Source: Nesterenkonia alkaliphila
GTDB taxonomy: Bacteria; Actinomycetota; Actinomycetes; Actinomycetales; Micrococcaceae
Assembly (NCBI RefSeq): GCF_009758175.1
Contig: NZ_WRPM01000007.1
Coordinates: forward strand, 1 to 64,000
Direction: 5' to 3'
DNA length: 64,000 bases
Shown here: piece by piece, positions 45,737-51,962 of the stretch
Layout of the letters: every line of letters starts with the position of its first letter
How positions within the stretch are numbered: position 1 is the first letter of the stretch
Position numbers and translations under genes: made by a program
The notes under the pieces: model-generated
The model's input: the letters and a program-made list of their open reading frames with translations, nothing else
Databases searched by the model: none
Told to the model about the DNA's origin: nothing

Positions 45737-45885
45737 CGCGGCCTCCTGCTCGTTCCGGACGACTCCCGCCCTGTGCCACGCGAGTTGTGTCCCTGACTCG
45801 CCCGGCTTTCTGGGCCCAGTGATGCCGCCCCGTAAGCCGAGTCCTCACTGGCCGGCGGACCGTCGCTACCCGGTACGCCGGCCAG

Positions 45886-46133
45886 GTTGCTTGGAGCGGG
45901 CGCATAGCCGCGATCTCGTCGCTGTGGAGGGCCTTCTCCACTTCAAGATCGTAGTGGGCCTGGACGTTGCTACAGAAACGCTCGCTCATGCCGAAATAGC
46001 GGGAGAGCCGAACTGCAGTGTGGCTGGGGAGGCGCAAGCCGATACCGGGAGATGCCCCTGGTGTCTCTCGCAATACGTTGTTGGCCCAGGAAGCGGCACC
46101 GACGGGGTTCCGACTGGGCTTGGGCGGCGTCGT
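45886..46133 (-). pseudogene. Degraded higA copy with attached 71-bp repeat
   Basis: The minus strand encodes TAVRLSRYFGMSERF and HYDLEVEKALHSDEIAAMR, nearly the same as the intact HigA at 48449-48742. The N-terminal half is mostly deleted; a short piece (about 46027-46052) matches the region near 48659-48684. The sequence then jumps to a 71-bp block (46063-46133) matching 49071-49141, which lies upstream of the intact higB. higB itself is lost. The flanking 45737-45885 holds nothing I recognise. Confidence 0.75.
46063..46133. repeat. 71-bp repeat, copy 1 (partner at 49071-49141)
   Basis: Ungapped match, about 56 of 71 positions identical by eye, ending in GGGCGGCGTCGT. A shorter third copy of the right end (CGGGGCTCCAACTGGGG, then the 11-mer) is at 57891-57923. 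Confidence 0.7.
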
Positions 46134-46206: not shown

Positions 46207-47190
46207 ATGACTGATCGCAGTGAGCAGACGGTAGGGCGGCCGCTGATGAAGGCTGTGCGGCAAGAGGTCTTCGGTGGCCCTGAGGTGCTGCAGCTGGTGG
46301 AGGTGCCGCGGCCGCAGCCGGGCATCAGCGAGGTGCTGGTCCGGGTACACGCAGCAGGGGTGAACCCCACGGATTGGAAGCACCGGGCGGCCCGGCGGTT
46401 CCTGGGGAACCCTCCGTACACCCTCGGCTGGGATGTCTCCGGGACAGTTGAGGAGATGGGGCTCGGGGTCACCATCCACAAGCCAGGCGACGAGGTCTAC
46501 GGCATGCTGCGCTATCCCCACGGGGCGGGCTCCCATGCCGAATATGTGATCGCCCCGGCACGGGCGTTGGTGCCCAAACCCGCCGGCCTGAACCATGTAC
46601 AGGCCGGCGCGATCCCGCTGGCCGCACTGACTGCATGGCAGTCCCTGGTGGATACGGCCGGTCTCGGCCCAGGAGACCGGGTGCTGATCCATGCAGCCGC
46701 CGGGGGAGTAGGTCACTTGGCAGTCCAGGTGGCCAAAGCCCGGGGTGCCTATGTGATCGGCACAGCCAGTGCGGGCAAGCACGGCTTTGTCCAGGGACTG
46801 GGTGCCGATGAGATGGTGGACTACCGGCACACCGACTTCACCGAAGTGGTCAAAGACGTTGACGTGGTTCTGGACACTATCGGCGGCGACTACCAGCTGC
46901 GCTCATTGGAGTGCCTGCGGCAGGGGGGAACCCTAGTCTCCCTGCTGCCCAAGCCCGCTGAGGGCCTCTACGAGAAGGCCCGCCAGCTCGGCGTACGGGT
47001 GGAGCTCATCCTCGCCGAGGCCGACCGGGCCGGAATGCAGGCCGTCTCTGAGCTGGTGGAGACTGACAAACTGAAGGTCACCATCGCCGACACCTTCCCG
47101 CTCGCGGAAGCAGCACGCGCCCATGAGGCCGGGGAGACCGGGCGCACCACGGGCAAACTGGTACTCACCGTCGCAGCCTGGGGTAAGTAA
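46207..47190 (+). CDS. NADP-dependent quinone oxidoreductase (zinc-free MDR family)
   Basis: 327 aa from the ATG at 46207 behind GGAGGG; an internal ATG (MKAVRQEVFGGPEVL, 46246) is the more classical family start. GVNPTDWKHRA, LGWDVSGTVEEMG, AAAGGVGHLAVQVAKARGAYVIG (NADPH fold), VDVVLDTIGGDYQLRS. No zinc-binding Cys runs, as expected for this branch. Its 3' end overlaps the convergent pRiA4b-like gene by 26 bp. Confidence 0.88.
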   Translation: MTDRSEQTVGRPLMKAVRQEVFGGPEVLQLVEVPRPQPGISEVLVRVHAAGVNPTDWKHRAARRFLGNPPYTLGWDVSGTVEEMGLGVTIHKPGDEVYGMLRYPHGAGSHAEYVIAPARALVPKPAGLNHVQAGAIPLAALTAWQSLVDTAGLGPGDRVLIHAAAGGVGHLAVQVAKARGAYVIGTASAGKHGFVQGLGADEMVDYRHTDFTEVVKDVDVVLDTIGGDYQLRSLECLRQGGTLVSLLPKPAEGLYEKARQLGVRVELILAEADRAGMQAVSELVETDKLKVTIADTFPLAEAARAHEAGETGRTTGKLVLTVAAWGK

Positions 47191-48427
47191 CGGTGATGCC
47201 TTCGGCGGCCAGCAGTTGCCGGACCCGCCCGAGTTTCCGGTCCGTGGAGAAGAGTTCCCACGCCATTGAGAGGCTCTCTTCGCGAAGGAGTGCACGGAAG
47301 GCCCGGAAAGCACCGCGGCCCTCGATTGCGCTCTCTATCCGTTCTCTGAGTTCGAGGTTGGGCATCTGCTGCCGGGCGAATGCAGCCATATCCTCCCAGC
47401 CTTCGTGTGAGTCGAGGGGTTCCAACCAGAGCCATCGGCTGGGGTCCAGGGCGATATCGATGGCGGCGTCCTTGCCCACCAACGCGGGATCAGTGAGACT
47501 TCTGGGATAGGCCTCCCCGGTGTTGCGGTCCACATACGCACCCGTGGCGAGGTCGGGGTCCCCCTCCAGCAGCGAGCTGAGGAGCTCAAGATCGACAGGC
47601 GGGGGCACCTCCTCCAACGGCTCACCGCGCAGATGAGCCAGAAGCAGGTCCGCAAGCTCCTGGTCCCCGGGGAAGCCCCGGACGATCAGCCGGTTGATCA
47701 CAGAAAATGCCGCGTCCGCGGCGTCGTCGTGCGCCTGCTCCAACGCCATCAGTATGCCCTGGCCCACCTGCTGCAGGGCGTGGTCGATCTCCCGCCCGAT
47801 GATTGCCGCCATGAGCGCTTCAGCGTCGGCAGCTGCTGTGGCGCTTCGCAGTTCCGTGGGATCAAGCTGGGGAAGCTGGCGGTGGTCAGGCCACTGGCCG
47901 ATGAGCATCGGGTGGGGGTCGCGCGGGCGGCGAGGGGTACGCCCCTGTCCGTCATCATCCTCCCACCGACGCCCGTACTGATCAGGAATGGTCCTCCACC
48001 CCCAGTACGGTAAGGGAGTTGTGGGCTGTATCCCGAGCGTTTCTAGCGGATCGACTTTCTCCGAACCAACAGTGCAGCGGTGCCTCCAGCCGTCACCGAG
48101 GTCGAACTCGAACTGGAACTCATCCCCGGGATGGACCGTTGCTGCGACCCTGGCCCTAGCAAAGTCAAGAGGGCGAAGCAGAGGCCCGGCCATAGCCCCT
48201 GCTAACCCACGTCCTGTCTCCTCATCGGTGAACACCCGGCCATCAGCCAGAGTGAACACGGACAGGTGCGCCCGGTCCCATCGGGCGAACCCATCATTAA
48301 TGGCGTGGGCCAGATCCTCAAAAGTGTGTGAGGGGCCTACCGCAAAGATCCGTCCGGGCCAGGGCCAGAGGTCCTGGCCGCGCCCACCCAGCAGCTCCAC
48401 AGTGATGGATAACCAGTTCTTTGCCAT
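47165..48427 (-). CDS. pRiA4b ORF-3-like / UPF0158 fusion protein, copy 1
   Basis: 420 aa. Residues ~1-190 match the plasmid pRiA4b ORF-3 family: WPWPGRIFAVGPSHTFEDLA, DEFQFEFDLGDGWRHRC and YWGWRTIPDQYGRRW. A middle helical part follows. The C-terminus resembles UPF0158 (IESAIEGRGAFRAFRALL). Function unknown. A near-identical paralogue lies at 50574-51827; the two bracket higBA and a DUF4143 ATPase. Its last codons overlap the quinone oxidoreductase 3' end. Confidence 0.8.
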   Translation of the reverse strand: MAKNWLSITVELLGGRGQDLWPWPGRIFAVGPSHTFEDLAHAINDGFARWDRAHLSVFTLADGRVFTDEETGRGLAGAMAGPLLRPLDFARARVAATVHPGDEFQFEFDLGDGWRHRCTVGSEKVDPLETLGIQPTTPLPYWGWRTIPDQYGRRWEDDDGQGRTPRRPRDPHPMLIGQWPDHRQLPQLDPTELRSATAAADAEALMAAIIGREIDHALQQVGQGILMALEQAHDDAADAAFSVINRLIVRGFPGDQELADLLLAHLRGEPLEEVPPPVDLELLSSLLEGDPDLATGAYVDRNTGEAYPRSLTDPALVGKDAAIDIALDPSRWLWLEPLDSHEGWEDMAAFARQQMPNLELRERIESAIEGRGAFRAFRALLREESLSMAWELFSTDRKLGRVRQLLAAEGITVTYPRLRR

Positions 48428-48448
48428 ACCCCCATGGTGCCACGGGCG

Positions 48449-49040: not shown

Positions 49041-49070
49041 GCTTATACTATAGCGCTACGCACTAATAGT

Positions 49071-49141
49071 GTCTAGCGCAATGCCTTGTTGGCCCGGGCA
49101 GAGACGCCGACCGGGCTCAAACTGGGGCTGGGCGGCGTCGT
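49071..49141. repeat. 71-bp repeat, copy 2
   Basis: Matches 46063-46133 without gaps. Here it lies between the higBA promoter and the iteron array of the next gene, and ends in the recurrent 11-mer (49131-49141). Confidence 0.7.
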
Positions 49142-49158
49142 CATATCTCAGGTTATCC

Positions 49159-49250
49159 CTCGAAAGTGTTCGGCAAGTCCCCTCGAAAATGCGCAAAAAC
49201 TTGTCTCGAGATTGTGCACAGAGTAGGCTCGATGTTGTGCACAGGGAAGC
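49159..49250 (+). promoter_or_regulatory. Four 23-bp iterons upstream of the DUF4143 ATPase
   Basis: CTCGA recurs at exactly 49159, 49182, 49205 and 49228, a constant 23-bp period. Each is followed by a related core; units 3 and 4 share TTGTGCACAG, and units 1 and 2 carry diverged versions (AGTGTTCGGC, AATGCGCAAA). The last unit ends 6 bp before the ATG, so a bound protein would block transcription or translation initiation. Likely an operator array, possibly for the downstream product. Confidence 0.75.
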
Positions 49251-49256
49251 GAGAGC

Positions 49257-50537
49257 ATGATGTCGGCACTTACTGCAGAGGTTCCCCGGCGGCTTGAGGA
49301 AGTTGTCCGGGCGCGCCTTCGGGAAACCCCCGTTCTGGTGATCAGTGGGCCTCGTACAGTAGGCAAGAGCACTGTGCTGCGGGCATTGGCACAGCAGCTC
49401 GAAGCCTCGATCTTGGATCTGGACGACCTCGCGACTCGAGAGCTGGTGGAGGATGATCCTGGGTACTTCATGAGCGGGGAGCCGCCTATCCTCGTCGATG
49501 AGTACCAGAGGGTTCCCCAGGTGCTGGCGGCGATCAAAGCGGAGCTTAACAAGGGCCAGTCCCCTGGACAGTATCTGCTCACCGGCTCCACCCGGTACGG
49601 CAGTCTCCCGCAGGTGGCAACTTATCTGACTGGACGAGTACAGACCCTGGACCTCTATCCCCTGTCCCAGGGTGAGATTTCGGGAACTCACGAATCCTTT
49701 CTGGAGACCGCGCTCAGGAATCCTGCTGAGTTGGTAAGCCGTGATCCCTCGCGTACTACTCGTGAGGAGTACACCGAGCGTGTCTGTGCAGGTGGTTTTC
49801 CGGTTGCTCTTCGTTCTCCCTCGGTGACCGCCCGGCGGCGCTGGTACAACGACTTCATCAACCTAGTGGTGACCAAAGACGTGGTGGAACTGACGCGGAT
49901 ACGTCAGCGAGCCCAGCTGCCTCACCTGCTGCGCCGGCTGGCCAGCCAAACCGGCCAGCTGGTGAACATGAGTGAAGTCTCCCAGGATGTGAAACTCGAC
50001 CGGTCTACCGCGGAGCGCTACACCACACTGCTGGAAGCGGTGTTCCTGGTGCATCGGTTGCCTGCCTGGGGTACCACACTGGGATCCCGGATCACCCGGA
50101 ACCCCAAACTGCACATGGTTGACACGGGCGTTGCTGCGCACTTACTGGGCCTGACGCCCCAGAAGCTCGCTGCACGGAATCCTTCTGCGCTCACCGAGTT
50201 TGGGCACCTGCTGGAAACCTTCGCCGTGAATGAGGTGATGAAGCAGGCAACCTGGTCAGAGGAACTCATTGAGCTGGGCCACTTCCATACTCACGATCAT
50301 GATGAAGTGGACTTAGTCCTTGAAACATATGACGGGCGTGTGCTGGGGATCGAGGTCAAGGCGTCAGGCCGGGTGCCCGGCAAAGACTTCTCCGCACTGC
50401 GCATGCTCGGCAGAAAAGCGGGTAGCCGGTTCCTCGGCGGAATCGTGCTCTATCTCGGTTCACGGAGCTACAGCTACGAAGACAATCTGCACGCACTGCC
50501 ATTAGACACCCTCTGGCAACCGGGGCGGCAGCAGTAA
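49257..50537 (+). CDS. ATP-binding protein with AAA_14 and DUF4143 domains
   Basis: 426 aa. Walker A-type VISGPRTVGKSTVLRALA, Walker B-like PPILVDEYQRVP, sensor LLTGSTRYGS, then the DUF4143 part with TARRRWYNDFINLVVTKDV and a late nuclease-like block HDEVDLVLETYDGRVLGIEVKASG, which carries a D-(x)n-E-x-K pattern as in PD-(D/E)xK folds. These ATPases are widespread and variable in copy number; their role is unknown, possibly TA-like or defensive. Embedded between paralogous repeats with higBA. Confidence 0.87.
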   Translation: MMSALTAEVPRRLEEVVRARLRETPVLVISGPRTVGKSTVLRALAQQLEASILDLDDLATRELVEDDPGYFMSGEPPILVDEYQRVPQVLAAIKAELNKGQSPGQYLLTGSTRYGSLPQVATYLTGRVQTLDLYPLSQGEISGTHESFLETALRNPAELVSRDPSRTTREEYTERVCAGGFPVALRSPSVTARRRWYNDFINLVVTKDVVELTRIRQRAQLPHLLRRLASQTGQLVNMSEVSQDVKLDRSTAERYTTLLEAVFLVHRLPAWGTTLGSRITRNPKLHMVDTGVAAHLLGLTPQKLAARNPSALTEFGHLLETFAVNEVMKQATWSEELIELGHFHTHDHDEVDLVLETYDGRVLGIEVKASGRVPGKDFSALRMLGRKAGSRFLGGIVLYLGSRSYSYEDNLHALPLDTLWQPGRQQ

Positions 50538-50573: not shown

Positions 50574-51827
50574 TCAGGCGGGGTGAGTGACGGTGATCCC
50601 TTCGGCGGCCAGCAACTGCCGGGCCCGGCCGATTCTCCGGTCTGCGGAGAAGAGTTCCCATGCCTCGGAGAGCCCCTCTTCGCGGAGAAGCGCACGGAAG
50701 GCCCGGAAAGCACCACGGCCCTCGATTGCGCTCTCCATCCGTTCTTTGAGTTCGAGGTTGTGCACCTGCTGCCGAGCAAAAGCAGCCATATCCTCCCAGG
50801 CTTTGCGGGAGTCGATGTGTTCCAACCAGAGCCACCGGCTGGGATCCTGGTCGGTATCGATGGTAGCGTCCTCGCCCACCATTGCAGGATCGGTGAGACT
50901 GCCGGGATAGACCTCCCCGGTGTGGCGGTCCACATAAGCGCCTGAGGAAAGGCCAGGGTCCCCCTCCAGCAGGGAGCTGAGGAGCTCAAGATCCACCGGC
51001 AGCGCCTCCCCCTCCAACGGCACGCCGCGCAGACGGGCTAGAAGCAGGTCCGCAAGCTCCTGGTCTCCGGGGAAGCCCCGGAAGATGAGCCGATTGATCA
51101 CAGAAAAGGTCGCGTCCGCGGCGTCGTCAGGCTTCTGTTCTATCGCCATCAGCATGCCCTGGCCCACCTGCTGCAATGCGTCGTCTATCAACCGGCCGCT
51201 GACTGCCGCCAAGAAGGCCTCAGCGTCGCAAGATGCAGCGGCGCTGCGGAGTTCTTCCGCCTCAAGCTGGGGGAGCTGGCGGTGGTTAGGCCACTGACCG
51301 GTGAGCATCGTGTGGGGCTCGCGCGGACGGCGAGGGGTGCGTCCCTGCCCGTCATCATCCTCCCACCGGCGCCCGTACTGATCAGGGATAGTCCCCCACC
51401 CCCAGTACGGCAGGGGAGTTTTGGGCTGGATCCCGAGTGTCTTCAGCGGATCGACTTTCTCTGAACCAACAGTGCAACGGTGCATCCAGCCGTCACCGAG
51501 GTCGAACTCGAACTGGAACTCATCCCCGGGGCGGACCGTTTCTGCGACCTTCGTCCTAGCAAAGTCAAGGGGGCGGAGCAGAGGTCCGGCCATAGCACCT
51601 GCCAGCTCATTTCCAGTCTTCTCATCGGTGAGCACCTGGCCGTCCATCAGAGTGAACACGGACAGGTGCGCCCGGTCCCATCGGGCAAAACCATCGTTGA
51701 TGGCGTGGGCCAGATCCTCAAAAGTGTGTGAGGGGCCTACCGCAAAAATCCGTCCCGGCCAGGGCCAGAGATCCTGGCCGCGCCCACCCAGCAGCTCCAC
51801 GGTGATCGACAACCAGTTCTTCGCCAT
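50574..51827 (-). CDS. pRiA4b ORF-3-like / UPF0158 fusion protein, copy 2
   Basis: 417 aa from the ATG at 51827 (MAKNWLSITVELLGGRG); longer upstream frames lack support. Very similar to the copy at 47165-48427 over its whole length, in DNA as well as protein. It differs mainly in the middle helical part and at the last residues (ITVTHPA against ITVTYPRLRR). The two form a direct repeat of about 1.25 kb, 2.15 kb apart. Divergent from the SNF2 helicase gene. Confidence 0.8.
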   Translation of the reverse strand: MAKNWLSITVELLGGRGQDLWPWPGRIFAVGPSHTFEDLAHAINDGFARWDRAHLSVFTLMDGQVLTDEKTGNELAGAMAGPLLRPLDFARTKVAETVRPGDEFQFEFDLGDGWMHRCTVGSEKVDPLKTLGIQPKTPLPYWGWGTIPDQYGRRWEDDDGQGRTPRRPREPHTMLTGQWPNHRQLPQLEAEELRSAAASCDAEAFLAAVSGRLIDDALQQVGQGMLMAIEQKPDDAADATFSVINRLIFRGFPGDQELADLLLARLRGVPLEGEALPVDLELLSSLLEGDPGLSSGAYVDRHTGEVYPGSLTDPAMVGEDATIDTDQDPSRWLWLEHIDSRKAWEDMAAFARQQVHNLELKERMESAIEGRGAFRAFRALLREEGLSEAWELFSADRRIGRARQLLAAEGITVTHPA

Positions 51828-51962
51828 GCCCCCATAGTGCCACGGGGGCCAGGGCTGTCCGTGACCAGGTGCTGGCCGGCGGTGTTGGCCTGCGCTGCTT
51901 CCGCCTCCGGTAGGGTATGAGGGTTCTCGACCTGCGCAGCGAGGAATGGAGGGGCGCACAGG

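Follow-up and report, generated by a model that had tools for sequence, protein, structure and literature searches.

Genes for an AAA_14 ATPase joined to DUF4143 are catalogued as PDC-S01, a single-gene phage defence candidate (PADLOC; PMC12988326). With 29,494 bacterial and 9,986 archaeal detections, it is placed fourth by frequency among all prokaryotic defences (PMC12988326). A further study also treats the DUF4143 family as a known, common candidate (PMC13356809). An archaeal survey describes an AAA ATPase fused to HTH and RecB nuclease domains that is likely to act in defence (PMC4158269), a group that may or may not be DUF4143. In the literature searched, as far as its texts were accessible, we found no functional or antiphage test of PDC-S01 and, with bioRxiv and most subscription papers outside the search, no mention of an operator array at DUF4143/PDC-S01 genes.

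Operator arrays and iterons are known in themselves. In iteron plasmid Rep systems, direct repeats about two helical turns apart lie beside the gene of the protein that binds them. The array described here likewise consists of direct repeats beside a gene, but the encoded protein has no Rep domain by Pfam, and the arrays appear to lie on the promoter. The PF01637-DUF234 ATPases, which we take to be a sister family that likewise combines AAA and winged-helix domains with a nuclease-like C-terminus, also carry promoter-proximal repeats, but these are symmetric or short by eye, and none of 23 loci had a 22–24 bp period. Transcription control of defence genes is familiar from CapW and BrxR, which are separate WYL-domain regulators, whereas here the effector itself would repress.

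The present locus was found in a window of 64,000 nucleotides from Nesterenkonia alkaliphila, which is the whole stretch of DNA analysed. Its protein is the same as PADLOC PDC-S01, matched over the full length, and the operator array is what we add. The earlier note had proposed a new type of gene; as a gene family it was already described, AAA_14-DUF4143 being the defence candidate PDC-S01 of PMC12988326.

The array and its gene in the window

The features of the locus are the following.

49159 to 49181, forward strand: predicted operator unit 1, CTCGAAAGTGTTC core plus spacer (sequence and chance test)
49182 to 49204, forward strand: predicted operator unit 2 (sequence and chance test)
49205 to 49227, forward strand: predicted operator unit 3, containing TTGTGCACAG (sequence and chance test)
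49224 to 49229, forward strand: TAGGCT, -10-like hexamer of an inferred promoter, within the array across the junction of units 3 and 4 (sequence)
49228 to 49250, forward strand: predicted operator unit 4, nearest the start codon, containing TTGTGCACAG (sequence and chance test)
49257 to 50537, forward strand: AAA_14-DUF4143 ATPase, PADLOC PDC-S01, with an AAA domain at about residues 13–141, a winged helix at 218–268 and a PD-(D/E)xK nuclease-like domain at about 338–415 (Pfam, PADLOC, AlphaFold model)

Read directly from the window sequence, CTCGA starts at 49159, 49182, 49205 and 49228, so that the constant spacing reported in the earlier note is exact at 23 bp. The stretch common to units 3 and 4 was also described correctly, as was the 6-bp gap between the end of the array at 49250 and the ATG at 49257. 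The label of four exact iterons fits the spacing but not the sequence, in which 15 of the 23 unit columns vary. Eight columns are invariant (CTCGA, TG at 9–10 and C at 13), whereas 300 dinucleotide shuffles of 49041–49256 averaged 2.93 such columns and never had more than 6, and CTCGA is the only 5-mer occurring four times at one exact period of 15–35 in the 64-kb window. The array was missed by a general repeat search and by Tandem Repeats Finder at minimum score 30. Within its own genome, the tandem-pair pattern with zero mismatches matched at the window array only (three overlapping matches), and with up to two mismatches it matched four further places, about as many as its reversed control (five). 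Chance origin of the arrays was ruled out by the window shuffles together with the family period test and the replication loci given below, and the window array is confirmed as a genuine repeat array.

The window protein scored above the Pfam cut-off for both PF13173 and PF13635, and the PDC-S01 profile PDLC04790 matched residues 7–421 of 426 (E 1.5e-151); the same profile matched 73 of the 73 proteins in alignment A3. Among NCBIfam families, no model matching the protein was found, and the search for sequence relatives in the PDB returned two chance-level matches only (best E 0.48). The AlphaFold model (pLDDT 95.3, pTM 0.94) comprises an AAA domain, a winged helix (helices 218–229 and 238–245, recognition helix 249–261, strand 265–268) and a nuclease-like alpha/beta domain. 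The best solved fold match was 2qen (VIA Z 15.8 over 255 residues, rmsd 4.2), followed by 2fna (Z 14.3 over 247 residues, rmsd 4.1) and further by RPP1 (Z 13.8), CED-4 (Z 13.3) and Avs5 (Z 11.1). These matches, namely 2qen, 2fna, the NLR, CED-4 and Avs, we take to represent the STAND class, and by the model the window protein has a STAND-like arrangement, with an AAA core followed by a winged helix. The archaeal ATPases 2qen and 2fna share this arrangement in the fold comparison, but their aligned ranges stop at residues 297–298, before the nuclease-like domain, with 11–17% identity. Across 73 aligned sequences the ATPase motif residues G31, G36, K37, D81, E82 and R127 are invariant. The C-terminal PD-(D/E)xK pattern claimed from the window alone was borne out, since the putative nuclease residues E350, D352 and K368 are likewise invariant in the 73 sequences (E366 is conserved in at least 90%) and the model places an alpha/beta domain there.

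In the window, a direct repeat of 1267 bp (47180–48446 and 50580–51846, 86.4% identical), which carries pRiA4b ORF-3-like genes by weak Pfam matches, flanks the segment of higBA plus PDC-S01. At 45884–46133 there is a remnant resembling part of higA and the region upstream of higB (86.8% over 136 bp; 79% over 73 bp). An inverted repeat at 49050–49082, with 16-nt arms that are 81% complementary, lies immediately 5' of the divergently oriented gene for a higB-like toxin and is likely the higBA operator, separate from the 23-bp array.

Arrays across the DUF4143 family

To compare the upstream regions of homologues for repeats of about 23 bp, a period test was applied to the best 60-base window upstream at lags 15–35 (21 lags), against 200 dinucleotide shuffles and with a threshold of p ≤ 0.01. 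All sampled family loci were bacterial, and some were near identical (L048 and L091). The first sample held 143 loci (L021–L163), nine of which were left out: L028 as a duplicate of L021, and L023, L045, L065, L066, L068, L102, L155 and L160 for want of a usable Walker A frame. Significant arrays were detected at 107 of the remaining 134, and the best lag was always 22 (32 loci), 23 (72) or 24 (3). Control stretches were significant at 4 of 131 loci further upstream and at 1 of 134 inside the gene, in both cases at scattered lags. The significant loci span Actinomycetota, Pseudomonadota, Verrucomicrobiota, a spirochaete (L086) and a Ruminococcus plasmid (L153).

The result was replicated on previously unused loci of the same 296-genome sample, hand-picked for query start ≤30, query end ≥400, no internal stop and no earlier locus. 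Here 63 of 81 were significant, 56 at 23 and seven at 22. This set combines a first batch (62/79) with L327 (significant at 23) and L326 (not significant); it includes L276, which has an internal stop and no significant array, and L290, one of the first 80, was left out because it had no frame. Among DUF4143 loci of the same genus, 18 in number with three not usable, 13 of 15 had a significant array, with a period of 23 at 12 loci and of 21 at one.

Homologues lacking the repeats had been named in the earlier note as evidence against its reading; they form a minority only, with no significant array at 27 of 134 loci in the first sample, 18 of 81 in the replication and 2 of 15 in the genus, and decay can explain them. 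Among relatives with no significant array, some of them distant, five (L111, L120, L137, L151 and L152) seem by eye to have an inverted repeat instead, which covers the promoter or the start codon.

The same test on PF01637-DUF234 genes (30 loci, seven not usable) gave six significant loci among 23, all at a period of 15 or 16 and none at 22–24. The 22–23 bp ladder is therefore tied to DUF4143 proteins. By eye, L183, L188, L202, L209 and L212 of the sister family have symmetric or 15–16 bp promoter repeats, and these sequences suggest that it perhaps has its own kind of self-operator. Within the DUF4143 set, the period was shared with the nearest protein neighbour in 95 of 106 cases, and one large protein cluster was split 27/27, so that either the host or the protein may set the period. 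The arrays are a trait of the DUF4143 family, present in most members examined.

Unit architecture, apparent promoter position and genomic context

In the 23-bp class, column agreement is 0.80–0.95 at columns 2–17 and 0.69–0.74 at columns 18–23, so the unit can be described as a core of 16–17 bp plus a spacer of about 6 bp. Palindromy of the units was no higher than in shuffles (2.10 vs 2.06), on which ground palindromic dimer sites were rejected. Non-palindromic units are as expected for one protomer per unit.

TANNNT -10-like boxes are concentrated at -13/-12 from the start codon, with 43 there in 106 loci and at most 6 at any other position. This is the place expected for the -10 element of a leaderless promoter. 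The array often lies just upstream of this box or over it, and, judged by the consensus boxes in or beside them, the arrays appear to sit on the gene's own promoter. In the window, TAGGCT is found 33 bases 5' of the ATG at 49257, as against -13/-12 for most TANNNT boxes of the relatives. Where the -10-like box follows the array, an RNA-level repeat is unlikely, but unit 4 of the window would be part of the transcript.

A protein bound to promoter-overlapping sites would block the polymerase, and the array thus reads most naturally as a repressor site. TTGAC was detected in 11 of the 32 loci of the 22-bp class (mononucleotide-shuffle mean 2.2), and in 8 of the 32 a -35/-10 pair brackets one unit, an arrangement that points to steric repression. 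We consider self-repression plausible, on the basis of the array's apparent position on the promoter.

As for their layout, these eight loci (L101, L109, L112, L117, L125, L126, L145 and L146) have the -35/-10 pair woven into the array, with one unit filling the promoter spacer, and the 22-bp period is close to the pitch from -35 to -10.

Direct repeats that replace the -35 element are also the layout of activators such as PhoB and the SARPs. Positive autoregulation, in which the protein on the array would stand in for the -35 and recruit RNA polymerase as those regulators do, agrees with the 23-bp class, where the core of the last unit often starts at -33/-34 and the -10-like box follows directly, at -12/-13. 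We nevertheless regard it as unlikely, given the units held between -35 and -10 in the 22-bp class, unit 4 of the window, which overlaps and then follows its -10-like box, and four loci (L062, L063, L064 and L067) whose TANNNT boxes recur every 23 bases within units, where a bound protein would hinder the polymerase.

When the fetched sequence around 106 loci was scanned with each locus's own profile, 356 matches fell within arrays and 10 elsewhere in 497 kb, with a possible second unit pair at one locus (L095). Transposon ends of the Tn7 type, with arrays at both ends, were rejected, as there was no second array in the 497 kb around the 106 loci, bar the possible pair at L095. The tandem pattern of one related array type was sought in 296 genomes and occurred at 15 places in seven genomes, against none for the reversed control. 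Three of the seven have a full-length DUF4143 match behind the array, one of them containing an internal TGA; in two the array precedes a decayed gene start (L234, a short tblastn match; L236, by eye and with no Pfam match); and in one nothing recognisable follows (L232). In the seventh, three units immediately precede an ORF of the APH family (PF01636) and the surroundings gave no DUF4143 match (L237, G209:C3:260863-260919); this array may be a relic or a promoter capture. Repeats upstream of unrelated genes, the other kind of counter-evidence foreseen in the earlier note, were therefore encountered in one of seven genomes for this one array type, and decay can explain that case.

Within the genus, DUF4143 copy number ranges from 0 to 10, 15 of 30 genomes are positive, and 11 of 47 matches extend over less than two thirds of the domain; such uneven gene content is as expected for defence or selfish genes. 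No syntenic empty site was found in the 29 other congeners searched, where the neighbouring SNF2 gene gave only short matches. The same scatter would suit a mobile-element end or replication iteron, with the protein of a selfish gene using the repeats for transposition or replication, and iteron plasmids also have direct repeats of about 22 bp beside the gene of the binding protein. This explanation is quite improbable in our view, since the other end of the gene is without a matching array in the profile scan and the window protein has no transposase or Rep domain by Pfam.

Protein–DNA covariation and the proposed regulation

The window's own genome encodes seven DUF4143 genes, each with an array directly upstream and with a unit sequence that differs from gene to gene by eye. 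In the period test five of six were significant, L024 reached p 0.02, and L023 was outside the test; the period at L022 is 24 bp. L023 (C74:61856-65353) has lost its AAA domain, and its 23-bp array, seen by eye, is fused directly to the remaining frame. Upstream of the DUF4143 gene of L025 (C52:94125-94160, L168) there are two degenerate window-type units, 23 bp apart and with two mismatches, which adjoin that paralogue's own, different array on its upstream side; they are perhaps a relic of an earlier gene, a sign of cross-talk, or chance.

Covariation between protein and array was analysed at 106 loci (L038 was dropped for length), with units registered without protein data. The top MI-APC pair was recognition-helix residue 254 with base 14 (0.29, s.d. 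0.033). C at base 14 accompanies K/R at residue 254 in 44 of 55 loci and other residues in 8 of 51, and G at base 14 occurs in 8 of 9 loci with D/E and in 10 of 97 with other residues. Opposite this C stands a G, the base that Arg and Lys usually contact. The association persisted among 38 proteins below 60% identity (11/15 vs 1/23; residue 254 first of 118 columns), and among 24 below 50% residue 254 was again first, of 79 columns, for base 14; the 16 proteins below 45% (4/4 vs 1/12) were too few for ranking. At the replication loci, for which register and column had been set in advance, K/R at 254 went with C14 in 11 of 13 cases and other residues in 7 of 50 (p 3.7e-6 for the 62 loci of the first batch). 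The window protein and its array obey the pairing in the registered units, with R254 facing C14 and D248 facing G13.

Under within-cluster permutation (60 permutations, 204 pairs with MI ≥0.25), 248:13 had the highest z (5.9, tied with 65:3; and 7.0). Weighing against recognition by the helix, pairs outside the winged helix were also high (51:12, 65:3, 346:5 and 178:3), and in the sliding-window partial correlation the AAA domain came first (109–123, r 0.162) and the recognition helix second (247–261, 0.153). In sister-pair contrasts residue 254 came only third of 338 for base 14, and residue 248 second for base 13. The top 40 pairs include 11 in the winged helix (5.6 expected), none in the wing region (2.2 expected) and 13 in the nuclease (13.0 expected). 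The covariation is confounded by kinship, which is not fully excluded, and the sequence evidence for recognition of each array by the protein encoded next to it is good but not conclusive. The earlier proposal of a dedicated binding protein, possibly the ATPase, gains support from the paralogue-specific arrays and the replicated helix–base covariation.

A separate host regulator or architectural protein could bind the array instead, and defence regulators encoded apart from their effector are known, namely CapW, BrxR and RptR. Copies in the same genome differ in unit sequence, though, and the bases of the units vary with the recognition helix of the adjacent gene's product, so we judge this option very unlikely; a single shared host regulator in particular is disfavoured because paralogues in one genome have different units. 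Least credible is the array as a cleavage target of the nuclease, for host killing or copy-number limitation: the catalytic residues are conserved and the polypeptide that carries them probably binds the site, but arrays remain intact beside the gene at most loci tested.

The reading we prefer, and hold to be fairly likely, is that the array is the operator of the self-repressing STAND nuclease encoded downstream, with one protomer per unit. The gene's own protein probably reads the array to switch the gene off. One protomer of the STAND-type AAA ATPase, which includes a PD-(D/E)xK nuclease, would dock through its winged helix on each 22–23 bp unit, and the protomers would align head to tail along the direct repeats, covering the promoter and repressing their own gene. 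Such autorepression would keep a potentially harmful nuclease scarce, and release may come through a nucleotide switch or infection. What the sequences show is the array in most family members examined, its constant period, a unit sequence private to each paralogue, the promoter position by consensus and the covariation of recognition helix and unit; from these we infer binding, plausibly cooperative, repression in preference to activation, nucleotide control and a role in defence.

More tentatively, and with some doubt on our part, PDC-S01 may be an immune switch made of a single gene, whose effector acts as its own repressor. STAND nuclease protomers would be kept inactive, head to tail, on a private 22–23 bp ladder at their promoter until infection releases them, so that derepression and nuclease activation would be one event. 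Infection could act through nucleotide exchange, through invading DNA that titrates the protein, or through some trigger from the phage. The ladder of each copy would diverge together with its recognition helix, insulating paralogues from one another. To our knowledge, no effector-repressor STAND nuclease with a private ladder has been described.

Together, a private ladder on most bacterial PDC-S01 genes examined offers a direct handle on a very common defence-candidate family. The ladder predicts a DNA ligand, the spacing of protomers, a recognition code and a means of derepression. The proposed regulation, if true, would give immune control a new layout that unites effector and repressor in a single STAND polypeptide.
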